Below are positions 44,516-63,025 of a stretch of 64,000 nucleotides of DNA, piece after piece. The notes beneath the pieces were generated by a model. That model had not been told where the DNA came from. It made no database searches and saw only the letters and a program-made list of their open reading frames with translations. This stretch comes from Lachnospiraceae bacterium. GTDB lineage: Bacteria; Bacillota; Clostridia; Lachnospirales; Lachnospiraceae. Made by a program: the position numbers and the translations under genes. The DNA lies in the NCBI GenBank assembly GCA_017468395.1, contig JAFUIR010000021.1:62001-126000 (forward strand). Direction: 5' to 3'. Positions within the stretch are counted from its first letter, which is position 1. Every line of letters begins with the position of its first letter.

Positions 44516-44570
44516 TTTCTAATACGTTATAGCAGAAACAATATACACTTTCCCTGTCTCTGTTATAAAT

Positions 44571-44610
44571 CACCTCGTATAATTGTATACAATCATACGA
44601 GGTGTGTCAA
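44571..44610 (-). promoter_or_regulatory. Promoter of the citrate synthase operon with a 34-bp GntR-type operator
   Basis: Minus strand TTGACA (44610-44605), 17 bases, TACAAT (44587-44582). Bases 44571-44604 form a palindrome with one mismatched pair: outer CACCTCGTAT/ATACGAGGTG and inner ATTGTATACAAT. It fills the whole spacer and the -10 and touches the -35. The inner core is the usual binding site of FCD-type GntR repressors, one of which is encoded in this operon. Confidence 0.85.
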
Positions 44611-44636
44611 TAGAAGAACTGATTTTCTTACAAGTT

Positions 44637-45548
44637 TTATTTTAATAAATTTTGTAATGATACCATACCGTAACCTTGTTTGCACCATGGTTCCCCCAAA
44701 TCCTGGGCTGAATAAAGTATTTTTTTCTTGGCATGGTCATTTTTATAATTTTCATGATGTGCATATAATACGCCTGCCACACCCGACACAATAGCCGTTG
44801 CCATGGAGGTACCGCTCTTTTTTGTATAAGCATTATGAAATCCCCTAATGCTTTTTTTGCAATTGGCATCACAGGACACAATAGCCGTTCCCGGAGCAAC
44901 AATGTCCGGTTTACGTTCCGCAAACCGCCCGCAAACGCCTCTGGCGGAATAAGTTTCACACCTGCCCGGCATATCTTTAAAATATTCCCCGTCATGGCAT
45001 CCAACCGTAATGATCCTAGAACTTCTTCCAAGGGCAGAAATACTGCCGGGCTCCGGTCCCTTATTTCCTGCCGCACAGACCACCAGCAGTCCCTCTTCCC
45101 ATGCTTTTTCCATGTATCTGATAAGCATTCTTTCTTTCGTTTTGTCTTGTAACTCTCCGATTCCCACCGAAATATTCAGTACACGGATTTTGTATTTTAG
45201 GGCATTTTCAATTACCCAGCCTATTCCCTCTGCCATGGCATCAGCCATTCCGTTTCCCTCATGATTTAGTACCTTGCCCACAAATAATTTTGCAAATGGA
45301 GCCACGCCCTTGTATTTTCCTGCTGAAAGTCTGCCATCTCCTGCTATAATGCCACACACATGGGTTCCGTGTCCGCTATCATCATAAACACTGTTTTTTC
45401 CATTTACAAAATCTTTAAATCCCACAATTCTATTGGACAAATCCGGATGAAGCATAACACCGGTGTCCAAAACTGCTATGGTAGGTACGCTCTCCGGTTT
45501 TATATTATATGTTGTTTCACAACCAATTTGGTTTCTTACTCTGAACAT
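44637..45548 (-). CDS. Subtilisin-like serine protease without signal peptide
   Basis: A 303-residue S8 peptidase. The catalytic triad is clear: Asp in IAVLDTGV near residue 28, His in DSGHGTHVCGIIAG near 60, and Ser in KKSGTSMATAIVSG near 245, with the oxyanion Asn in CAAGNKGP. There is no signal peptide and only about 20 residues before the core, no propeptide, so it resembles intracellular subtilisins. The ATG at 45548 directly follows a T-run of the preceding terminator, and no Shine-Dalgarno is visible. An in-frame stop lies a few codons upstream, so no longer N-terminus exists. Confidence 0.9.
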   Translation of the reverse strand: MFRVRNQIGCETTYNIKPESVPTIAVLDTGVMLHPDLSNRIVGFKDFVNGKNSVYDDSGHGTHVCGIIAGDGRLSAGKYKGVAPFAKLFVGKVLNHEGNGMADAMAEGIGWVIENALKYKIRVLNISVGIGELQDKTKERMLIRYMEKAWEEGLLVVCAAGNKGPEPGSISALGRSSRIITVGCHDGEYFKDMPGRCETYSARGVCGRFAERKPDIVAPGTAIVSCDANCKKSIRGFHNAYTKKSGTSMATAIVSGVAGVLYAHHENYKNDHAKKKILYSAQDLGEPWCKQGYGMVSLQNLLK

Positions 45549-45587
45549 AAAAACATCCCGGCTTTTTTCATATCATATGCCGGGATG
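45549..45587 (-). terminator. Terminator of the sortase-surface protein operon
   Basis: A 9-bp GC-rich stem (45554-45562 with 45579-45587, CATCCCGGC/GCCGGGATG) with a 16-base loop and five T on the minus strand. The T-run abuts the ATG of the subtilase gene. Confidence 0.8.
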
Positions 45588-45600
45588 CCCTAAATAGGTC

Positions 45601-48309
45601 TTACTTATATTTTCTTTTCCTTGGTTTATAAAAAATTACTGCCATGGATAAACTGAAAAGTCCTGCCGCAAAAAGCCACTTGGGCTGGAATGTGTCGCCG
45701 GTATCCGGCGATTCATCCATACGGCTGCTTAAATTTACATTGGTACGGTAAATACCAAAAGGTGACAGATGGGACAAGGTCATCACTAAATTTCCCTCCT
45801 CATCATAATGATAAGGAACACTCTCCAATTGCCCGTTTCTGTCCATGGTCACAATTCGGATGCTGCCGGTTCCCTCAATCTTAGGCACGGGCATCACTAC
45901 CTGCAAGGAATTGTTTCCAAGTTTTTTTATGGACACATCACTGTTTAAATCAAATAATTCCATCGTAAAATAAACCGTATTTCTGGGAAGGTTTTGTTTA
46001 TATACATTTTGGAAGGATGTATCCAGTTTTTCCTTGATACCTTCGTCTCCGTCAGCCACTTTCAGATAAAGAGAACTTACATCGCCTTCCAAAGATGCCT
46101 TAATCCGGGATGCCAAGCCCAAAACTTCCGCTTCATTTACCACCTGAATATCATAACTTTCCTGCGGTCTTTGGGAAATTCCATAGGACATATCATCCAA
46201 ACCTTCTACTTTATAAGTTTTGCCGTCAATATAAATGTATTCCGGTATATATGCCTCCTGCAATTCATCCGGTGTAAGGTTACAGGTAATGGCTGTGATG
46301 ATGGAACGGCTTTCAGAACTTATATATCCAACAATTCCCCTGAAGCCGTAATTTTGCGCATCCAAAACGGTTCCCGCCAAATCATCTTCGGAAATTTTAC
46401 TGCTTACAACAGCAACAAGCACATCATTTAAAACCAAAGTTCTGGCTTTATCGTTGGACAGTCTGGTTGCTGTATCTTCATATGATATAGTAGGCAGAGT
46501 CTCTTCATGTTCAAATACAACTACTTTTGTAGAGGTACTCTTCTGGGTCTTGCTAAAGTCAATGGCACCAAGTCCTATTTCTTTTACTTCCTTGGTCACA
46601 TGGAAAGTCTGAATCGGACAATCTTCAAAAGCATTATCTTCTATCTTGGTTATATACTTTCCGCCTTGAAGGGAAGAAAGATTAATACATCCTGCAAAAG
46701 CACCTTCCCCGATTTCCCTCATGCCATCCGGGAAAACTACCTGTACCAGTTCATTGTGGTTTGCAAAGGCACCAGGCGCAATTTTCTTAACATTTTCAGG
46801 AATGGTCACTACTGCATAACTTCCCCTGTATGCAAGCAAAATACCGTCTCCCACAACGAGGAAGTCATCATTGCCGCCGGCCATCCAGTTTTCTATCCAA
46901 AGTGAGCCGTCAAAAGCTCTCGGTGCAATATCTGTTACCGTGGAAGGAATCGTCACATTTCTCAAATCCTTACAATAGTAAAATGCACCATATCCAATAG
47001 AGGTAACACTCTGGGGAATTGCTATTTTTTCAAGATTACTTCTGGCAAATGCAAATTCACCGATTTTTGTAATTCCATCCGGCATTACATAATCCGCTAC
47101 ATCTTCGCTCTTATAATAAGCCTGGTCAGCCAGAATATTTTCTCCTGTAACCGTAAATTTTGGAATCGAAATTACTTTATCTTCTGCCTCTTCAAAAACG
47201 CCGTCCGTGTCTTCTTCCCCTTCGTCCTTTTCCTCTTCTTCCACAGGATCCGGAGCGCCCAGAACGTTTGGAAGCGTATTATCAATAAAGACAAAAGCAC
47301 TGTTTCCTACAATCTGTGTTTGTCCCAAAATACTCTGTTTGTCGCCGGTGTCTTCACCGGGAACATAGTCCGGTTCTGTCGGGTCTTCCCCTTCATTGTT
47401 TCCGGTGTCTTCATATTCAGACTGGTCTTTATGACGTTTTAACCAATCTTCGTAATAGGTATATCCTTTAGTGCCTACATCTGCAATAATTTGCAGTTTC
47501 GGGCATCCGTCAAAGGCTGTAGAATGAATGGTATTTACCGAAGAAGGAATCCATACATTTTCCAGACTGACGCAATCTTCAAAGGCTCTGACGTCAATTC
47601 TTCTGACAGAAGCCGGAACTGACACTGCCTGCAAAGACTTGCAGTTACTAAAAGAATACGCCGGAATTTCTTCGATAATGTTGCTGATGGACAGGTTTTT
47701 CACACTGTTACAGCCCCAGAAAGCATATTCCGCAATATCAGTTACTGTGGAAGGCATGGAATAAGTTTCTTTTTCCCTGACAGGAATGAGCAAATATAGT
47801 TTGGTCATGTCTTTATCATAAAGACAGCCATCGGAAACTTTGAAATGCTCATGATTTTTATCAATGATAATTTCTTTCAAACTGCCACAACCGGCAAAAA
47901 CACCGATTCCCAAAGTTTTCAATTCATCACCAATTTCCACAATTTTTAAGGAATCGCAGTCAGAAAAAGCACCATTTCCAAGTTCGATTACGGAATCCGG
48001 AAGCACTACTTCTTTCAGTTCGCTACATCCCGCAAAGGCACGGTAAGCAATTTCTTCCACTTCTCCCTTAAAGGAAATGTATTTTACAGTAGTATTCCCT
48101 GCAAAGGCCTCTTCGCCGATACGGTTTACCGTAGCAGGAATAGACACGGTGCTAGCCGTGCCTACATACTTCACTAAAGTACTGCCATTCAATTGAAAAT
48201 CCGAAGCAACCGACGTATCCGCCGCTACTTCCGGTGCCGGTATCTGTGTCAAAATCAGTGCTGTCACCAAAAGTAACACTCCGACCACTTTCCGAATCGC
48301 TTTTTTCAT
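45601..48309 (-). CDS. BspA-like leucine-rich repeat surface protein with SPDTG sorting signal
   Basis: A 902-residue exported protein. It has a signal peptide (basic KKAIRKVV then hydrophobic GVLLLVTALILTQI, cut near A30), two blocks of BspA-type LRR_5 repeats (FAGCSELKEVVLPDSVIELG-like units, about residues 40-280 and 390-590), separated by an acidic linker rich in Glu/Asp, and a C-terminal domain before the anchor. The end is SPDTG (867-871), a hydrophobic helix and the basic tail KPRKRKYK. This is a cell-wall sorting signal of the SPxTG type recognised by class B sortases such as that of C. difficile. Last gene of the sortase operon. Ligand unknown. Confidence 0.88.
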   Translation of the reverse strand: MKKAIRKVVGVLLLVTALILTQIPAPEVAADTSVASDFQLNGSTLVKYVGTASTVSIPATVNRIGEEAFAGNTTVKYISFKGEVEEIAYRAFAGCSELKEVVLPDSVIELGNGAFSDCDSLKIVEIGDELKTLGIGVFAGCGSLKEIIIDKNHEHFKVSDGCLYDKDMTKLYLLIPVREKETYSMPSTVTDIAEYAFWGCNSVKNLSISNIIEEIPAYSFSNCKSLQAVSVPASVRRIDVRAFEDCVSLENVWIPSSVNTIHSTAFDGCPKLQIIADVGTKGYTYYEDWLKRHKDQSEYEDTGNNEGEDPTEPDYVPGEDTGDKQSILGQTQIVGNSAFVFIDNTLPNVLGAPDPVEEEEKDEGEEDTDGVFEEAEDKVISIPKFTVTGENILADQAYYKSEDVADYVMPDGITKIGEFAFARSNLEKIAIPQSVTSIGYGAFYYCKDLRNVTIPSTVTDIAPRAFDGSLWIENWMAGGNDDFLVVGDGILLAYRGSYAVVTIPENVKKIAPGAFANHNELVQVVFPDGMREIGEGAFAGCINLSSLQGGKYITKIEDNAFEDCPIQTFHVTKEVKEIGLGAIDFSKTQKSTSTKVVVFEHEETLPTISYEDTATRLSNDKARTLVLNDVLVAVVSSKISEDDLAGTVLDAQNYGFRGIVGYISSESRSIITAITCNLTPDELQEAYIPEYIYIDGKTYKVEGLDDMSYGISQRPQESYDIQVVNEAEVLGLASRIKASLEGDVSSLYLKVADGDEGIKEKLDTSFQNVYKQNLPRNTVYFTMELFDLNSDVSIKKLGNNSLQVVMPVPKIEGTGSIRIVTMDRNGQLESVPYHYDEEGNLVMTLSHLSPFGIYRTNVNLSSRMDESPDTGDTFQPKWLFAAGLFSLSMAVIFYKPRKRKYK

Positions 48310-48333
48310 CCTGCCTCATTCCTCATGAGTATT

Positions 48334-51300
48334 TTATACTACCATTGCTTTTTCTTTTTTATCCTTCTTTAAGAACAAGAACACTGCCAAACATCCAAGT
48401 CCCATTACAAAGAACCACTTGGGATGAATATCACCTGTTTTCGGTGAGGAATCCGTTGTTCCCGGAGAGGATAAATCCGTCACATCCACATAAATTACAT
48501 AGGGTGAGAAGTGTTCTGCGGTAAATGTAACGCAGGCAACACCATCAATAGTTGCAAATCTTGTGGACAATTTGTCAAGTCTCTCATTCACAACACCTGC
48601 CACCTTGTTGTTACCGGCATATTTAATCATAGAATCCGGCAAAGGAAGGGTTATGGTAATGGAAAGACCGCTGGTGTCTGTAATTTTTGTTTTTCCTGTG
48701 GAATCATACAAACTGATGTCCATAGGGAAGTATTTCAGATTTTTCACACTGCCATATTCGTTCAGCAGTGCCTTCAATACTTCTTCTGTTGCATCTGTAT
48801 CTTCTGTAATTTTAATCACAAAGTTATCAGAAGAACCATGCACTGTACCGGATACAACGCCGGTATTGGATAAACCGTTTTTATCAATTACGATAATAGT
48901 GCCCGGCTTATTTGAAGAACCACTGTTGTTATTATTGTTTCCGTTATTATTGTTGCTTCCGCTGTTTCCTGAATTACTGCTGTAATTAGGGTCTTTTTCA
49001 TATGTCGCCTCAATAATTATATTTTCCGCAGGCATAGTAAAGAAAGTTGCTGCAACAGAATTACTGATAAATTTCGCATTGGCACTCTCACTTACCCATT
49101 TGTCAAATCTCTGTCCTTTTGCAGGTTCATTTGCAATAACAGGAATCTGTGCGCCTGCCGCATAACTACCGGAACCCGTACCATTCTTAACTGTCAGCGT
49201 ATACAAAGTTGTATCTGTTGTACCATTGTTACCGCTGTTGCCGCCGGAACCACCATTTCCACTACCGCCTGAGCCGTTATTTCCTGAATTATTATCTTCA
49301 TCAACCACTTTATCGGGAACGCCGTCGCCGTCGGAATCAATCAATGTTCCTCTCTCATACTGCGCATAAGTAGTGGTATCTGCTTTAATATTGGTAATGG
49401 CAGGTCTCCAACCGGTAAAAGTATATCCCTCTCTGGAAGGATTCTGGGGCGTAATTGCATCGCCGCCGGGAGAAACCATCTGTGTGTAAAGAACGGTGTC
49501 GTCCCAATCCAAAAATGTTACGGTATACTTTGATTCTTCAGAGTCAATCTTTTCGTACAATGCCTGTACGTCCATATCTCTGCTGACATCGGAGAAATCT
49601 TGCGACCAACCGGTAAATCTGTATCCTTCTCTTCCTACCGGATCAGGCGCTGTGGCTGATGTATGCCACAAAAGAGTTTCTTCTTTCACAATCGCCAGTT
49701 CGCCGGAAGTATTATAATCCCAGAAAGTTACGGTAAAATATTTCTCAATTTCTTTTTCGGAAACTACAATATTTTCATATTCGTTTGCGTATGTCTCCGC
49801 AGCGGAACCGGGTTCACAGTAAAACTCGATAATCTTATTGCTGTCATATGTATCAAAAGCTGAAGGATCAATAAATGTTACACTACCGGGAATTTCCGCA
49901 TACTGCAAACCACTGCCGGTAAAGGCATTGTTACTGATACTCTTACAAGTGCTTGGAAGAATAACCTCAAACAAATTGGAGGTGTTTGCAAACGCATACT
50001 GAGGTACTCTTTCAATATAGGACAGAGACAAGTCTATGGAACCGATATTCTCACAATCCATAAATGCTTCATCATTTAAAGTTTTCACACCGGTCAATTC
50101 TTTTGCACTAACTGTTCTGCTTCTGGATTCCAGACATTGAACTACAGAAAGTTTCACGTCATCATCCGTTCCGTAAATAACAGAATCTGTACATACAAAG
50201 TAAGGACCTCCGGAGAATGAAACATCTGTCAGCGCTGTACAATCTTTAAAAGGACGAAGTCCCAGAGTTGTAACCTCCGGCGAAATAGTAACATTAGCCA
50301 ATTTTGCATTGTTTTGGAATGCGTAATCGCCAATAGTTTCGCCGCCTTTAACCATACGGAAAGTTGTCAGTCCTGACATGGAACCTTCTTTTGTGTCGGG
50401 TTTGGTATATTCATATGCAAAAGCATAGTCATGAATCTTCTCTGCACCGCCATTGATGGTAATGGTGGCCAAATCGGTACAACCGCTGAAAGAATAAGGT
50501 TCAAACTCCTCAATGGATGCCATGGTAATACTCTGGATGTCCGTATCGGGAGTACCCTTGCGGGAACCGGTCTTAGTCTCTTCGTTATACACATATCCGC
50601 CGTTAAACAAACCACTCTTTAAGCCTGTAACGCCTTCGGGAAGTACCACATTAAGGGCGGAGTTAATAATAGACCACTGGTTTTGGGAAACTTCCGTCTT
50701 TCCAAAAGAATTTATCCATGCATTATACTGCTCTAAAGCTTTGTCTGCCGCATCAATATATTCCTGTTCCATGTAAGGATAATCTGCAATAGTGTAAGTA
50801 GACAGTTCCGTAAAGGTAGGATAATCTACCAATTCTGCCCGGTTATTATCATAGTTATAAACAATTTCAAGGTTTGTAGGCCAGCCGCTGTAATATGTAA
50901 TATAAGTACGGGGCTGCGCACCTGCATTAATATTTCCGTTTGCATTCATGGCATACTGGAAAGGCACAATATTGCTTCCCACTGTACCTGTAAAAGTAAG
51001 CACAGGAGCCTTGGCTACACCGGTTGAAGCATCCGGCTCAAGGAAACTCTCGTCACCACAGCCATAAGTATCATTTATGGAGTGTGAAGAATCAATTACC
51101 TGCGTTGCAAACGCATCAGTGCCAATCTTGGTAATTGCACCGGCATTTTCAAAAATAACGTGCTGCAGATTATGGCATCCCTTAAAGGCCTCTTCATTAA
51201 TTGCCTTAACCGTAGAAGGAATCACAATCTTTTTCAGATAACAGTTATTTGAAAAACTTCCGGCATTAATTTCAGAAATACCATAAGGACCCACTCTTCC

Positions 51301-52938
51301 GGGGATAGTAACTTCTGCCACAGGACCGGACATCTCAAAATGCAAAAGCTGATTCTGAGAGTTTACCTGATACATAATCTTATTATCAGACTCCTCATCG
51401 ATAATAATAATTTCGTACTTATCATCTGCCGCATATTTAAATGCAATGGCATTCAATTTTGTAAAATCATGAGTCTTGGATTCATCTACACACTCAAAAT
51501 AAAATGTGGAGTGTACCTGGTCTTTAAAGTTTTGCACCGTGTATGCATCATCATCATATCCGGTAGTAGCCACCGGCTCAATATCGGAACGGAGCGCCGA
51601 AGGAGCCGTCTGCACGGTAATGCTGCGCAGATTACTACAATCCTTAAAGTTGTTTAATACCAATTTATAAGGGCTCTTATCATCGCCCACAAAGGACGCG
51701 GGAATCGTTACATTCTGTAAGGATGTACAACCCTTAAATACATAATAACCCAAATCTTTCAGGTTTACGTTTGCGCCCTCGCGTACACCAGCAATATCCA
51801 AATTGCTCAGTGCCCAGCAGCCGTCAAAAGCATGGTCATAAATATATTGCACACTGGCGGGCAATGTGAAATTGGTCAGTGCCTGACAGTTTTGGAATGC
51901 ATAGTCCGCAATAAAAGTAATATTGGAAAGGAAAGGAATATTTACTGTTTTCAAGTTGATACAGTCCGCAAAAGCAGCTTTACCGATTTCTTCCAGACCA
52001 TTTCCCAAAGTAACGGTATCCAGACCACCGCAAGTATAGAAAGCCCAGTTTCCGATACCTTTCAAATATTCACCGATTACCAATGTCTTGATATTAGTGT
52101 TGTTCGCAAAGATACCTTTCAAAGGATCTGTATTGATTTTGCCCTGCTCCTGTGCAATTTTCCAACCTTGAACCGCACCTGCATCATTAGCATCCACACT
52201 TTCCAGTGTCTGGTTTCCGATGTAAAATACTTTGATGTTTTTAATCCACTGGACATTTTCAGTTGCCGTCAACTCAAAAGCAGCCTCTGCACCTACCACG
52301 TCTTCATTTTTATTGTAATAAAACTGGGTCAACTCCAAGTCCTGCCAAGCATTTCTGTCGTTATAATAGCAGGGACGGTGCTCGGCAATTACTTTTTCTG
52401 TAATGATTTCGCCCTCTTCGTCCACCATTTCCTTGCCGTTTTCGTCCAACTTGGGCACGTCTTCATAAACAGCATAATACAGAGGATTTCCGGCTTTGTT
52501 TGCCGCCACATAACCCTCAAAGGAACCTTGGTTGCTGTTGTATTTCATATACGCATTCACTTCATCAGGAATTTCCAGATAGTTATTTACCAGATTTCTG
52601 CCGTTATAGCCCAAAATAACCGCAATCTTATTGTTGCTGGATTTAGACTCGTTTACATAAGCAAACTGGAAAGTACCGTCACCGGTAGTATAGATTTCTT
52701 TACAATCAGCATCTACAACCGGAATGGCACTGGTATGTTTGGTACTTGCCTCTTTGATATCACCTTTCCAAATCTGATTGTCCCATGTGTATTTTGTTCC
52801 TTCGCCGTTTACGTTTGCCGCTTCCGCTTTTGGAACCGGAATAGCCGCTACCACCAGGGCTGTAATCAAACAGATTGTTCCCATGGTTCTGCGAACCTGC
52901 TTCCTTAATTTCAAATTTTTCTTTGTCTTCTTAGTCAT
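48334..52938 (-). CDS. Giant BspA-like surface protein with InlB B-repeats and SPKTG sorting signal
   Basis: A 1534-residue exported protein. A basic start (KKTKKNLKLRKQVRR) and hydrophobic segment form the signal peptide, cut near A39. Residues about 280-1080 hold scattered LRR_5 repeats (FKGCTSLQNVTIPASF, FADCINLKTVNIP and others). Two InlB B-type repeats follow (EGYRFTGWSQDF, EGYTFTGWRPAI), then the calcium-type motif DSDGDGVPD, a Gly/Asn/Ser-rich linker, a third FDKW-type repeat, a second Asn/Ser-rich linker and an unnamed domain. The end is SPKTG (1498-1502), a membrane helix and KKDKKEK, a class B sortase signal. It probably spans the wall and binds host or food glycoproteins, but the ligand is not known. 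Confidence 0.9.
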   Translation of the reverse strand: MTKKTKKNLKLRKQVRRTMGTICLITALVVAAIPVPKAEAANVNGEGTKYTWDNQIWKGDIKEASTKHTSAIPVVDADCKEIYTTGDGTFQFAYVNESKSSNNKIAVILGYNGRNLVNNYLEIPDEVNAYMKYNSNQGSFEGYVAANKAGNPLYYAVYEDVPKLDENGKEMVDEEGEIITEKVIAEHRPCYYNDRNAWQDLELTQFYYNKNEDVVGAEAAFELTATENVQWIKNIKVFYIGNQTLESVDANDAGAVQGWKIAQEQGKINTDPLKGIFANNTNIKTLVIGEYLKGIGNWAFYTCGGLDTVTLGNGLEEIGKAAFADCINLKTVNIPFLSNITFIADYAFQNCQALTNFTLPASVQYIYDHAFDGCWALSNLDIAGVREGANVNLKDLGYYVFKGCTSLQNVTIPASFVGDDKSPYKLVLNNFKDCSNLRSITVQTAPSALRSDIEPVATTGYDDDAYTVQNFKDQVHSTFYFECVDESKTHDFTKLNAIAFKYAADDKYEIIIIDEESDNKIMYQVNSQNQLLHFEMSGPVAEVTIPGRVGPYGISEINAGSFSNNCYLKKIVIPSTVKAINEEAFKGCHNLQHVIFENAGAITKIGTDAFATQVIDSSHSINDTYGCGDESFLEPDASTGVAKAPVLTFTGTVGSNIVPFQYAMNANGNINAGAQPRTYITYYSGWPTNLEIVYNYDNNRAELVDYPTFTELSTYTIADYPYMEQEYIDAADKALEQYNAWINSFGKTEVSQNQWSIINSALNVVLPEGVTGLKSGLFNGGYVYNEETKTGSRKGTPDTDIQSITMASIEEFEPYSFSGCTDLATITINGGAEKIHDYAFAYEYTKPDTKEGSMSGLTTFRMVKGGETIGDYAFQNNAKLANVTISPEVTTLGLRPFKDCTALTDVSFSGGPYFVCTDSVIYGTDDDVKLSVVQCLESRSRTVSAKELTGVKTLNDEAFMDCENIGSIDLSLSYIERVPQYAFANTSNLFEVILPSTCKSISNNAFTGSGLQYAEIPGSVTFIDPSAFDTYDSNKIIEFYCEPGSAAETYANEYENIVVSEKEIEKYFTVTFWDYNTSGELAIVKEETLLWHTSATAPDPVGREGYRFTGWSQDFSDVSRDMDVQALYEKIDSEESKYTVTFLDWDDTVLYTQMVSPGGDAITPQNPSREGYTFTGWRPAITNIKADTTTYAQYERGTLIDSDGDGVPDKVVDEDNNSGNNGSGGSGNGGSGGNSGNNGTTDTTLYTLTVKNGTGSGSYAAGAQIPVIANEPAKGQRFDKWVSESANAKFISNSVAATFFTMPAENIIIEATYEKDPNYSSNSGNSGSNNNNGNNNNNSGSSNKPGTIIVIDKNGLSNTGVVSGTVHGSSDNFVIKITEDTDATEEVLKALLNEYGSVKNLKYFPMDISLYDSTGKTKITDTSGLSITITLPLPDSMIKYAGNNKVAGVVNERLDKLSTRFATIDGVACVTFTAEHFSPYVIYVDVTDLSSPGTTDSSPKTGDIHPKWFFVMGLGCLAVFLFLKKDKKEKAMVV

Positions 52939-52978
52939 GCTGTATCTCCTTACCTTTCCTCACGAAGTCTCCACAACA

Positions 52979-54136
52979 TTAGTTTATCCTTTTGGCAACC
53001 ACTACAAATCTGCCGTAATCCGTATAGTAATCACAGGTTGATAATGTCAATAGTTCATCCCCGTACTTGGCTGTCACACCGGTATCATAAAGGGACATTG
53101 CTGCCATTTCTTTCATGTTAGAATTGAATTCTGTTTCGGAGTTTACATCTATGAATTGATAATATTTAAAAACAATCTCATCTTCCTCATAGATTTTAGA
53201 ACGAAACACATACATCACCTCATAAGTGCCTTTTTCATAAATGGTGTCAAACTGTATGTATTTGTGCTCTTCGTAATAATCTTTGGAACTGTATTTGTCC
53301 AGTTTCCCAAACATTCTGCCGCTGGACATATGATGCCCGTAGACAATCAGATTGGTACTCCTTTCAATCACATCACAATCCTTGTCCAAAAAGATGCACC
53401 CGTTTTTGTCATACTCATGATCAAAGTTATGTTTCAGATAATATTCATTGTCAACTGTCTGCATAACAGGGTAATCTATATTTGTATCGGCTATTTTTAT
53501 CCATCCGATTAGTCTTTTATTCTTATTAAATAAATTTTTATATTCATCCAACACTTCCGGGATTACAATTTCGGTATCTTCGTCATAATTTATGACCACC
53601 GTAGACCCTGTTGTGGTGTTTTCCACCGGTTCTTTATCTTTAAGTTGTGCCAGTTCATTATAATTTTGCTCTGTCTGATGAGCCTGATAATAATAATATC
53701 CCAAATAGCCAAAGCAAAGAATGGCCATACAAACGCAAGAAAAAAGCAACAGTTTCCTTCTCCGCTCCTGCTTTTTCAGTTCAGCCTTAATGCTTTTTTG
53801 CATATTCTTATCATAATCTTCCAGCCGGACTTTCTTTTTTCTTTGGCCGGTACTTTTATTATTTGCTATTTTTTTCTTTGTATTTTGACCTGACGCCTGT
53901 CCTGTTTGACTGATTTTGTTTAACCGCTCCAAGATTTCTTCCTCAAAATCCTGACCGATAATGGTCCTGAAACGGTATTTTCCGCTTTTTAAATCATTTA
54001 AGAGTTGCTGCAGCCCCTCCCTATTTTCCAAGTTATATCTGCGTTTAATCTGTTCTATGTATTCGGCATCTCTTTTGGCCGCTTCATAATCCGTCCGGGT
54101 ACGAAAATCTCTTCCTGCTACCGTCCATTCTCCCAT
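52979..54136 (-). CDS. srtB: Class B sortase with long cytoplasmic N-terminus
   Basis: A 385-residue membrane transpeptidase that attaches surface proteins to peptidoglycan. The catalytic domain shows His268 in VYGHHMSSG, Cys368 in LTLSTCDY and Arg376 in YGRFVVVAK. One transmembrane helix lies at residues 129-150. Before it is an unusual cytoplasmic region of about 128 residues with a basic, helical segment (DYEAAKRDAEYIEQIKRRYNLE) and a Lys-rich stretch. The frame opens at 54178; the ATG at 54136 with GGAGG upstream is chosen. It heads the operon with two proteins that end in SPxTG, its likely substrates. Confidence 0.92.
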   Translation of the reverse strand: MGEWTVAGRDFRTRTDYEAAKRDAEYIEQIKRRYNLENREGLQQLLNDLKSGKYRFRTIIGQDFEEEILERLNKISQTGQASGQNTKKKIANNKSTGQRKKKVRLEDYDKNMQKSIKAELKKQERRRKLLLFSCVCMAILCFGYLGYYYYQAHQTEQNYNELAQLKDKEPVENTTTGSTVVINYDEDTEIVIPEVLDEYKNLFNKNKRLIGWIKIADTNIDYPVMQTVDNEYYLKHNFDHEYDKNGCIFLDKDCDVIERSTNLIVYGHHMSSGRMFGKLDKYSSKDYYEEHKYIQFDTIYEKGTYEVMYVFRSKIYEEDEIVFKYYQFIDVNSETEFNSNMKEMAAMSLYDTGVTAKYGDELLTLSTCDYYTDYGRFVVVAKRIN

Positions 54137-54311: not shown

Positions 54312-54342
54312 GAGCATAAACAAAATCTTGGAGGTAAATCAA

Positions 54343-54591
54343 ATGAGTGATTTAACTGCGACAAACTGCGGCTGCAATACAGCCAATACAAATTCTTGCG
54401 GATTCGGAATGGGTTCCGGATGCAATATTATCTGGATTATCCTTTTGCTCTCCTGCTGCGGAAATAACAATGACTGCGGATGCGGCGGCATTCTGGGCGG
54501 CAACAGCGGCTGCGGCAACAACAGCTGCGAATGGCTGATCTGGATCCTGCTTATTTCCTGCCTGTGCGGCAACAACAACTCTTGCTGCTAA
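54343..54591 (+). CDS. Small cysteine/glycine/asparagine-rich protein with two hydrophobic repeats
   Basis: An 82-residue protein with 14 cysteines. Two similar halves each hold a hydrophobic stretch followed by cysteines and Asn: WIILLLSCCGNNN and WILLISCLCGNNN, pointing to an internal duplication. The ATG at 54343 lies after GGAGG with good spacing. There is no signal peptide of the normal kind. Composition is like small structural or coat peptides of spores; the putative sigma-K-like promoter agrees with this, but no family was recognised. It has its own terminator and is followed by two further unknown genes. Confidence 0.75.
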   Translation: MSDLTATNCGCNTANTNSCGFGMGSGCNIIWIILLLSCCGNNNDCGCGGILGGNSGCGNNSCEWLIWILLISCLCGNNNSCC

Positions 54592-61825: not shown

Positions 61826-63025
61826 TTATTTTGTCAGTTCATAAGTTTCTCTTGCAATGGCAAGTTCTTCATTGGTAGGAATTACCATTACTGTCGTTGC
61901 GGAATCTGCAGTACTGATGGCAATATCCTCGCCACGCTTGTTATTGGCTGCATCATCCAATTTTACTCCAAGGTAACCAAGATAGTTGTTCAAAATCTTT
62001 TCTCTGATGAAAGGACTGTTCTCGCCAACACCTGCTGTAAAGCAGATTACATCTACGCCGTTCATTGCTGCCACATAAGAACCAATGTATTTTGCTACTT
62101 TATAAGCAAAAGTCTCCATGGTCGCAATTGCATATTTGTCGCCCTTTAAGTATGCTGCCTCCAAATCACGGAAGTCGGAAGAAAGGTCGTTGGACATACC
62201 GTATACACCGGATTTTTTATTTAAGATAGTCATAACTTCATCAATGTTCTTATTTTCTTTATGTGCAATGAACTCGATGATTGCAGGGTCAATATCACCG
62301 GATCTGGTACCCATAATCAGACCTTCCAGAGGAGTCAGACCCATGGATGTATCTACGCATTTGCCGTTCTTTACTGCGGAAATGCTGGCACCGTTTCCAA
62401 GATGGCAAACGATAATCTTCAAATCTTCATAGTTCTTTCCAAGTACCTCTGCCGCTCTCTTGGAAACATAAGAATGGCTGGTTCCGTGGAAACCGTATCT
62501 TCTCACTTTATATTTTTCATAATAGGAAATAGGAAGACCATAAAGGTATGCTTTCTCAGGCATGGTCTGATGGAAAGCGGTATCAAATACTGCAACCATG
62601 GGAGTTTCGGGCATCAATTCTTTACAAGCATTGATACCAATCAGGTTTGCAGGATTGTGAAGAGGTGCAAGTTCGTTACACTCTTCGATTGCTTTCAGCA
62701 CATCATCATTAATCACTGTGGAACTTGCAAACTTCTCGCCGCCGTGTACAATACGGTGACCAACTGCACCGATTTCATCCAAAGATTTCACAACGCCGGT
62801 CTTTTCATTAGTCAGTGCCTCAAGCACCAGACGGATAGCATCTGTATGGTTTGCCATGGGAGTTACATTTGTCTCCTTCTCGCCGCCTGCGGGAGAATAA
62901 ACAATCTGGCTGCCTTCAATACCGATTCTTTCGCAAATACCTTTTGCAATCATTTTTTCTGTTTCTGCATCGATAAGCTGGAATTTCAAAGAAGAACTTC
63001 CGCAGTTAATAACTAAAATATTCAT
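61826..63025 (-). CDS. ackA: Acetate kinase
   Basis: AckA makes ATP and acetate from acetyl phosphate, the main energy step of many fermenters. The 399 residues start ILVINCGSSSLKFQLI, and show HRIVHGGEKF, VFDTAFHQTMP, RRYGFHGTSHSYV, HLGNGASISAVKNGK and FTAGVGENSPFIR. All standard motifs are intact. It lies 50 bp after pta; the two form the phosphotransacetylase-acetate kinase pathway. Confidence 0.98.
   Translation of the reverse strand: MNILVINCGSSSLKFQLIDAETEKMIAKGICERIGIEGSQIVYSPAGGEKETNVTPMANHTDAIRLVLEALTNEKTGVVKSLDEIGAVGHRIVHGGEKFASSTVINDDVLKAIEECNELAPLHNPANLIGINACKELMPETPMVAVFDTAFHQTMPEKAYLYGLPISYYEKYKVRRYGFHGTSHSYVSKRAAEVLGKNYEDLKIIVCHLGNGASISAVKNGKCVDTSMGLTPLEGLIMGTRSGDIDPAIIEFIAHKENKNIDEVMTILNKKSGVYGMSNDLSSDFRDLEAAYLKGDKYAIATMETFAYKVAKYIGSYVAAMNGVDVICFTAGVGENSPFIREKILNNYLGYLGVKLDDAANNKRGEDIAISTADSATTVMVIPTNEELAIARETYELTK

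Follow-up and report, generated by a model that had tools for sequence, protein, structure and literature searches.

A class B sortase and its two predicted leucine-rich repeat substrates in a Lachnospiraceae genome

How might a sortase find its own cargo in a cell that has several such enzymes? This question is raised by a locus of a Lachnospiraceae bacterium (assembly GCA_017468395.1, contig JAFUIR010000021.1, forward-strand positions 62,001 to 126,000), in which the sortase gene SRT is followed by genes for two secreted leucine-rich repeat (LRR) proteins, LRR1 and LRR2. This whole stretch of 64,000 nucleotides (the window, to which all coordinates below refer) is part of a 2.6-Mb assembly of 29 contigs. 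Comparison of sequences makes it highly probable that SRT is a sortase with LRR1 and LRR2 as private substrates, and a four-residue stretch, HPKW, is likely a recognition block in the part of the substrate that leaves upon cleavage. The features on which the argument is built are the following:

52979..54136, minus strand: SRT, class B sortase, membrane-bound, 385 amino acids (open reading frame, family profiles, alignment, fold match)
53912..54136, minus strand: N-terminal cytosolic module of SRT, residues 1–75, VxGRxFRTxxDYxxAxxD...FxTxxGxDF (alignment, model)
53687..53761, minus strand: membrane segment of SRT, about residues 126–150 (sequence reading; helix 110–167 in the model)
48334..52938, minus strand: LRR1, secreted LRR_5 protein with InlB-type repeats, 1534 amino acids, main predicted substrate (open reading frame, Pfam, relatives)
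48337..48447, minus strand: sorting signal of LRR1, SPKTGD-IHPKW with hydrophobic helix and basic tail (sequence, profile)
48415..48426, minus strand: HPKW block of LRR1 (68/68 complete LRR1; codon table)
45601..48309, minus strand: LRR2, secreted LRR_5 protein, 902 amino acids, second predicted substrate (open reading frame, Pfam, relatives)
45604..45711, minus strand: sorting signal of LRR2, SPDTGDTFQPKW with hydrophobic helix and basic tail (sequence, profile)
45553..45588, minus strand: hairpin and T run, likely terminator ending the SRT–LRR1–LRR2 unit (RNA fold)

The sortase and its two predicted substrates

SRT, LRR1 and LRR2 are contiguous on the minus strand in that order, with gaps of 40 nucleotides (SRT/LRR1) and 24 nucleotides (LRR1/LRR2). 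All three start codons are preceded by purine-rich stretches, that of SRT being the ATG at 54136 with GGAGGA immediately 5'. The hairpin 3' of LRR2 folds at -20.2 kcal/mol, a value equalled by 0 of 200 shuffles; a terminator scan (10 matches, compared with 8.1 in shuffles) missed it because its loop exceeds the limit of the scan. An earlier note on this DNA had proposed one operon, for which the shared strand, the short gaps and the terminator-like hairpin provide the basis, and the open reading frames that it listed were all recovered in place. Its term 'giant' for both surface proteins suits LRR1 better than LRR2.

SRT is assigned to class B by score, triad and fold, and its transpeptidase activity is predicted. 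It scores 54.8 bits against the Pfam Sortase model (cut-off 26.6) and 162.3 bits against NCBIfam TIGR03064, the class B equivalog (cut-off 153.75). His268, Cys368 and Arg376 are without change in alignments of 24 and of 43 relatives, and the stretches YGH, TLSTC and GR align to solved SrtB chains. The predicted model has a mean predicted local distance difference test score (pLDDT) of 77, and its top 19 fold matches in the PDB are all SrtB enzymes. The class B assignment and the catalytic triad proposed in the earlier note are thus borne out by the TIGR03064 score and by the invariance of the three residues.

The N-terminal module of SRT, about 75 conserved residues before the membrane segment, is helical in the model (block pLDDT 81–96) and gave no NCBIfam match and no Pfam match above cut-off. 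Modules of this type also occur in stand-alone proteins of 176–205 amino acids without a sortase domain (relatives' loci L343, L363, L365, L367 and L370), which look like a single membrane segment with a coiled-coil end; at L343, the stand-alone gene lies directly 3' of LRR1. As a key to the pairing of SRT with its signals the module was rejected, on account of these stand-alone proteins and because it is not required: outside the genus, a module match is lacking in 11 of the 14 SRTs that adjoin such signals.

LRR1 and LRR2 have N-termini that are Sec-like by eye and score 240.9 and 280.4 bits, respectively, against Pfam LRR_5 (cut-off 27.7); InlB-type (Listeria–Bacteroides) repeats are also present in LRR1 (Pfam). 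As the earlier note had described, the two end in SPKTG and SPDTG with a helix and a basic tail, and share a PK-W context after the motif, which reads HPKW in LRR1 and QPKW in LRR2; HPKW directly adjoins the hydrophobic helix. Neither is a HupY protein (66.2 and 106.1 bits; cut-off of the HupY model 1250). SRT was also rejected as an NPQTN/heme-uptake (Isd) type of SrtB, in that the adjacent proteins are LRR_5 proteins with SPxTG in which a Pfam scan at E ≤ 0.001 found no NEAT domain. We infer both the display of the LRR proteins and the function that they would have there; for adhesion to mucus or fibre, as suggested in the earlier note, no evidence was found.

Elsewhere in the genome, related signals are few. 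A DNA pattern for PxTG[DE] matched 42 times in the assembly (36 in a reversed control), and 3 of the 42 translated matches are C-terminal motifs followed by a hydrophobic stretch and a basic tail: those of LRR1, of LRR2 and of a 383-residue VPKTG protein on contig C10, whose sequence after the motif (VPKTGDEGPG) differs from HPKW. This count is a lower bound, because a signal in which TG is followed by any residue other than Asp or Glu escapes the pattern. On the same genome, a profile built from 29 LRR1/LRR2 signals (including this LRR2) ranked LRR1 best and LRR2 second (5e-18), followed by the VPKTG protein (3.7e-4) and a chance-level match (0.93). Pfam Gram_pos_anchor at E ≤ 10 gave six matches there, none over the cut-off, and also had matches in 13 of 14 control genomes, which makes this model too weak for listing anchors. 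Two long proteins among those it indicated, of 1681 (contig C6) and 1858 amino acids (contig C11), were rejected as substrates: PxTG is absent from both, although each ends in a helix and a basic tail.

The assembly contains three sortase-family genes, namely SRT and one gene each on contigs C6 and C10. The latter two are SrtB-like, with identities to SRT of 43% and 51% in the matched parts, but their scores of 131.9 and 111.4 bits are below the class B equivalog cut-off. The C10 sortase lies directly 3' of its VPKTG protein. By sequence reading, the C6 sortase lies between an apparent dnaJ end and a methyltransferase gene, and no sorting signal was found beside it in this genome. By eye, the start of the C6 gene product (L002 1132-2052) resembles that of a lipoprotein (VVATGC), and a sortase anchored in this way would be unusual.

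Linkage and signal conservation among relatives

Eighty relatives' loci were chosen by sortase patterns alone, as the best 80 of 484; they are mostly from Lachnospiraceae, with some Clostridium, Ruminococcus, Butyrivibrio, Acetatifactor or 'bacterium' records and one Muribaculaceae metagenome-assembled genome. LRR1 lies downstream of the sortase in 71 of these loci (68 complete, 3 cut), with a gap of less than 150 nucleotides in 57 of the 71. The loci without a downstream LRR1 comprise six with room for it and three without, and an LRR1-type signal is found elsewhere in the genome in all of the six; one genome (G064) has two LRR1–LRR2-type signal pairs on contigs C117 and C134, away from its sortase locus L238. 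In 14 of the 71 loci, 0.2–3.9 kb lies between sortase and LRR1, and other open reading frames intervene in all ten of these that were inspected (L190, L201, L203, L216, L218, L219, L223, L224, L235 and L257).

All 68 complete LRR1 proteins fit [ST]P[KQSRT]TGD(x)IHPKW, with Thr rather than Ser as the first motif residue in 61 of them, so that the context noticed in the earlier note is constant in the LRR1 of relatives. IHPKW occupies P3' to P7' in the LRR1 of the window and P4' to P8' in most relatives. Among 67 non-redundant rows, the residues P, T, G, D, I, H, P, K, W and F are invariant, and so is an Asp that precedes S/T by two positions. The codons beneath the invariant residues vary; Pro and Gly, for instance, are each encoded by all four of their codons. 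The motif is present in 43 of 63 complete LRR2-type open reading frames; its x residue is D (37) or N (6), and [HQ]PK[WY] comes after it in 41 of the 43. Since HPKW is found in all 68 LRR1 proteins and the motif in 43 of the 63 LRR2-type ones, LRR1 is the constant and LRR2 the optional predicted cargo. The x position is K, Q, S, R or T in LRR1, as opposed to D or N in the LRR2 of relatives, and one enzyme may therefore serve two signal types.

A second set consists of 37 genomes of the same genus, this one included; it shares members with the 80 loci (L181/G027, L182/G017), and the two sets therefore do not count as independent. An SRT orthologue (E < 1e-80) is present in 26 of the 37 genomes, and all 26 have a strong LRR-type signal (E < 1e-14). 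Seven genomes have a signal and no orthologue match, and in these LRR1 (six genomes) or LRR2 (G025) starts or stops no more than 0.1 kb from the end of a contig. Neither is found in four: G007 (59% complete), G011 (with a weak signal match, 0.018), G018 and G023 (which has other sortases). Contig edges apart, SRT and HPKW-type signals thus co-occur or are jointly absent in the genus. Among 25 fetched loci of the other genomes' orthologues, the gene after the sortase is LRR1 in 24; the exception, G026, has its sortase on one contig and an LRR1–LRR2–S8–citS array on another. Several LRR2 proteins of the genus retain just the terminal helix.

The family was surveyed in 396 genomes of at least 90% completeness (signal E ≤ 1e-8, module E ≤ 1e-5); candidates were scored in part in many genomes, and the counts are therefore minima and the absences soft. 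The signal of this predicted surface-display locus is present in at least 53 of the 396 genomes (35 of 280 genera) and the N-terminal module in at least 94. All 26 genomes with a module match at E < 1e-12 fall within the 53 signal-positive genomes, and the 22 signal-positive genomes without such a match were all fetched. SRT lies directly upstream of LRR1 in 14 of these 22, three of the 14 having a weak module match. In the other eight, no SRT is found in the fetched stretch, the rest of these genomes not having been searched: LRR1 is at a contig edge in two, and six have 1.5–5 kb upstream.

Sortases of other clades are accompanied by other signals. Nine module-bearing sortases from signal-negative genomes, taken from a longer list and leaving out L368 (a weak sortase match), are 29–34% identical to SRT, and seven of the nine precede a protein ending in TP[KT]T[AG]... 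with [RV][YLF] and no HPKW. VPKTG proteins without HPKW lie beside other-clade sortases in four relatives and on C10 here. Three HPKW signals (L339, L340 and L353) read TAD in place of TGD. A quick maximum-likelihood tree was made of 57 sortase catalytic domains (39 HPKW, 7 TAD/RY, 7 other and 4 with no readable signal), from which a 111-residue second sortase-like match in L208 had been dropped; it contains three long branches. When the four rows without a readable signal are left out, the three signal types require two label changes, the least possible. A branch with a Shimodaira–Hasegawa-like approximate likelihood ratio test (SH-aLRT) value of 96 separates the 39 HPKW rows and three of the uncounted rows from the rest, the seven TAD/RY rows are grouped (97), and five VPKTG rows form a third group with the C6 gene (95), with the 'other' rows L371 and L355 standing apart. 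In this sequence comparison, sortase clades match signal types.

Recognition of the signal and alternative explanations

In the established sortase pathway, a protein is exported by Sec, retained by its helix, cut after Thr and transferred to peptidoglycan. In the mechanism proposed here, LRR1 and LRR2 would be exported by Sec and kept in the membrane via the C-terminal helix; SRT would cut after the Thr of [S/T]PxTG and join this Thr to peptidoglycan, and two long LRR proteins would be displayed on the wall. SRT probably reads beyond five residues, using the P2' Asp and I-H-P-K-W between the cut and the helix, which would mark the cargo for SRT rather than for the other sortases of the cell. 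A single SRT may handle both K-type and D/N-type signals, perhaps at unequal rates. Export, cleavage, the acceptor and HPKW recognition are all predictions for this locus. HPKW is likely a recognition block, because it is kept where TG becomes TA and follows the sortase clade, for which recognition by SRT would be the best explanation. The dedicated substrates suggested in the earlier note are well supported in silico, LRR2 being the weaker case.

Several points weigh against private cargo and its recognition through HPKW. The evidence is drawn entirely from sequences and models. Outside the genus, the block is relaxed in five of the 22 fetched genomes (PLKW, SLKW, SPKW twice, and EPKW); an adjacent SRT is seen in one of the five and not in the other four. 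When the four rows without a readable signal are treated as a fourth state, the tree requires six changes (least possible three), and 14 of its 39 HPKW rows were selected by their signal, including L333, which was placed in the HPKW type although its block is SPKW. The motif is absent in 20 of the 63 complete LRR2-type open reading frames, some of which may be broken or other LRR genes, and SPDTG is not among the peptides listed as cleaved by Clostridioides difficile SrtB in the available extracts of that work (PMC4155245). In addition, the C6 and C10 sortases could also process LRR1 and LRR2.

A further argument concerns the role of HPKW itself, which might be a feature of the membrane interface or of export, its Lys and Trp flanking the helix at its outer face, while the sortase reads [ST]PxTGD alone. 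Trp and Lys often occur at the borders of membranes, and the block abuts the hydrophobic helix. VPKTG and TPKTAD-type signals, however, have helices yet no HPKW; the block is strict in LRR1, mostly kept in motif-bearing LRR2 and follows the sortase clade, and it is retained in the three signals where TGD is TAD. We regard the membrane-interface explanation as a tentative one with a real, if minor, chance of being correct.

For LRR2, anchoring in the membrane only, with SPDTG decaying or incidental, was also considered. The LRR2-type proteins without the motif, those of the genus with a terminal helix alone, and the QPKW (not HPKW) of this LRR2 would fit, but the x residue is D or N in 43 of 43 LRR2 motifs, [HQ]PK[WY] follows in nearly all of them, and this LRR2 is second to LRR1 in the profile search of its own genome (LRR2 itself being in the profile). 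Membrane anchoring alone is thus rather unlikely.

Alternatively, the three sortases might overlap so that any of them anchors LRR1 and LRR2, perhaps mainly the C6 enzyme as housekeeping sortase, and the operon would reflect shared regulation. The similarity of the other two sortases to SRT, the lack of a signal adjacent to C6 and the PxTGD shared by the signals of this genome are compatible with such a pool, as is the example of C. difficile, in which one SrtB serves about seven substrates outside its operon (PMC4591827, in part). Against it, SRT and HPKW-type signals occur together or are both missing in the genus, contig edges apart; both are retained where they are unlinked (G026, and six of six loci without an adjacent LRR1); and other-clade sortases adjoin VPKTG proteins without HPKW. 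A shared pool therefore appears improbable. The genome-wide search for signals and sortases proposed in the earlier note yielded further sortases and no better-matching locus, the sole other signal found adjoining another sortase and differing after the motif. That note's 'self-contained' system holds insofar as SRT has its own predicted substrates adjacent and the C10 sortase lies beside its own VPKTG protein; it is unproven as a whole, because two more class-B-like sortase genes make cross-use possible.

Polymerization of LRR1 and LRR2 by a pilus-type sortase cluster is scarcely credible: some class B sortases build pili, and the solved structures 3psq and 4y4q are among the fold matches, but no match to a Cna-type domain was obtained at E ≤ 0.001 and LRR proteins of 900–1500 amino acids are unlike pilins (the pilin motif was not searched for).

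Private cargo for SRT can be set beside systems that have been studied; the statements on C. difficile and Bacillus anthracis draw on parts of the cited papers. The C. difficile SrtB motif is given as (S/P)PXTG, and NPQTN and NVQTG are not cleaved (PMC4155245), which removes the N from the [S/N/P]PxTG of the earlier note. This enzyme cuts SPKTG, PPKTG, SPQTG and SPSTG, three of the four motifs being cut at least 2-fold better with two native downstream residues (PMC4155245), and links Thr to diaminopimelic acid (PMC4591827). SRT resembles it in its class B fold (4ux7 and 5gyj are among the fold matches) and in having SPKTG-type motifs with helix and basic tail and an Asp after TG, which is found there in tested substrate peptides. 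Whereas C. difficile has one conserved sortase with substrates outside its operon, here an LRR pair is linked; HPKW, of which the extracts show no example there, the D-type signal and the N-terminal cytosolic module are further differences.

Full activity of B. anthracis SrtB requires P5 Asp, P2' Asp and P3' Glu, and no activity was observed without all three (PMC11987632), so residues outside the pentapeptide matter there. This SrtB, with its substrate IsdC (NPKTGDE), is the best match of SRT by sequence and fold, and the P2' Asp is found in both; its substrate functions in heme uptake, and no counterpart of IHPKW is seen in the parts of the source available. LRR1 and LRR2 share LRR_5 repeats with BspA-type proteins (e.g. 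HupY/LrrG), yet fall far below the HupY cut-off. The TPKTAD/RY loci of the same family (L356–L362) likewise have a module-bearing sortase followed by a sorting-signal protein, LRR2-like in six of seven; their sortases are 29–33% identical to SRT, and [RV][YLF] replaces HPKW.

All three components, namely the enzyme, the anchor and the type of protein, are of known kinds. HPKW together with a sortase was not found in the open-licence papers searched, and among the matches listed there for sortases of Lachnospiraceae or clostridia combined with LRR or surface proteins, none concerned this locus. The constant HPKW, the division between K and D/N, the match of clade and signal, and the module shared with stand-alone proteins appear to be new among the open-licence matches listed. 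Recognition beyond the pentapeptide has been reported for two class B sortases (PMC11987632 and PMC4155245, each in part). The present loci repeat, many times over, a natural experiment on how a sortase may pick out its own cargo where a cell has several: the PxT[GA] cores are similar, but the letters after the cut are specific to the clade (HPKW, RY or neither). For class B sortases, recognition beyond the pentapeptide thereby becomes directly testable.

The LRR1 C-terminal domain and neighbouring genes

Three further features lie ahead of the LRR1 signal and beyond the hairpin:

48472..48909, minus strand: beta-rich domain of LRR1, about residues 1344–1489 (predicted model)
48505..48513, minus strand: HFS tripeptide, residues 1476–1478, near the C-terminal end of the beta-rich domain (relatives' C-termini)
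44637..45548, minus strand: S8, subtilase with no signal peptide visible by eye (Pfam; beyond the hairpin here)

The beta-rich domain is modelled with block pLDDT 73–90 in its core and has a weak fold likeness to ZU5, FIIND and GAIN, no better than to dextranase C-terminal domains; no ZU5 profile match was obtained, and a PDB profile search with the C-terminal domain gave chance-level matches only. HFS is present in 109 of 112 LRR1 C-termini and fits an [HS]FS motif at the domain end. HFS is an autocleavage motif in PIDD and Nup98, as is SFS in CARD8 and NLRP1 (PMC3210808, in part). It is conceivable from the model, though very unlikely, that LRR1 is a two-piece protein in which a ZU5/GAIN-like domain would cut itself at H-F/S, leaving the LRR part held non-covalently to an HPKW-steered, sortase-tied stub; if so, the LRR part could be shed by force or by ligand.

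S8 is found 3' of LRR2 in 19 of the 25 fetched same-genus loci, several of the others ending early. It is a possible member of the operon: the hairpin lies between LRR2 and S8 here, yet S8 follows in relatives. Against the NCBIfam mycosin model it reaches 118.2, short of the cut-off of 278.75. Rfam matched nothing in the 43–56 kb part of the window. The names leuS, citS, GntR and ICDH used for neighbouring genes are our presumptive readings of the sequence by eye, without a family search. On the plus strand 5' of SRT are a small Gly/Cys-rich open reading frame and two short genes, followed by leuS on the minus strand; the Gly/Cys-rich frame (54328-54591, plus strand) is divergent from SRT and lies beside the sortase in 23 of the 25 same-genus loci. 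A promoter scan showed no excess of matches (29, compared with 28.1 in shuffles). One match, TTGACA-17-TACAAT at 44516-44639 on the minus strand, lies between S8 and the citrate-synthase-like gene and overlaps the palindrome CCTCGTATGATTGTATACAATTATACGAGG, a possible operator candidate for the GntR-like regulator located next.

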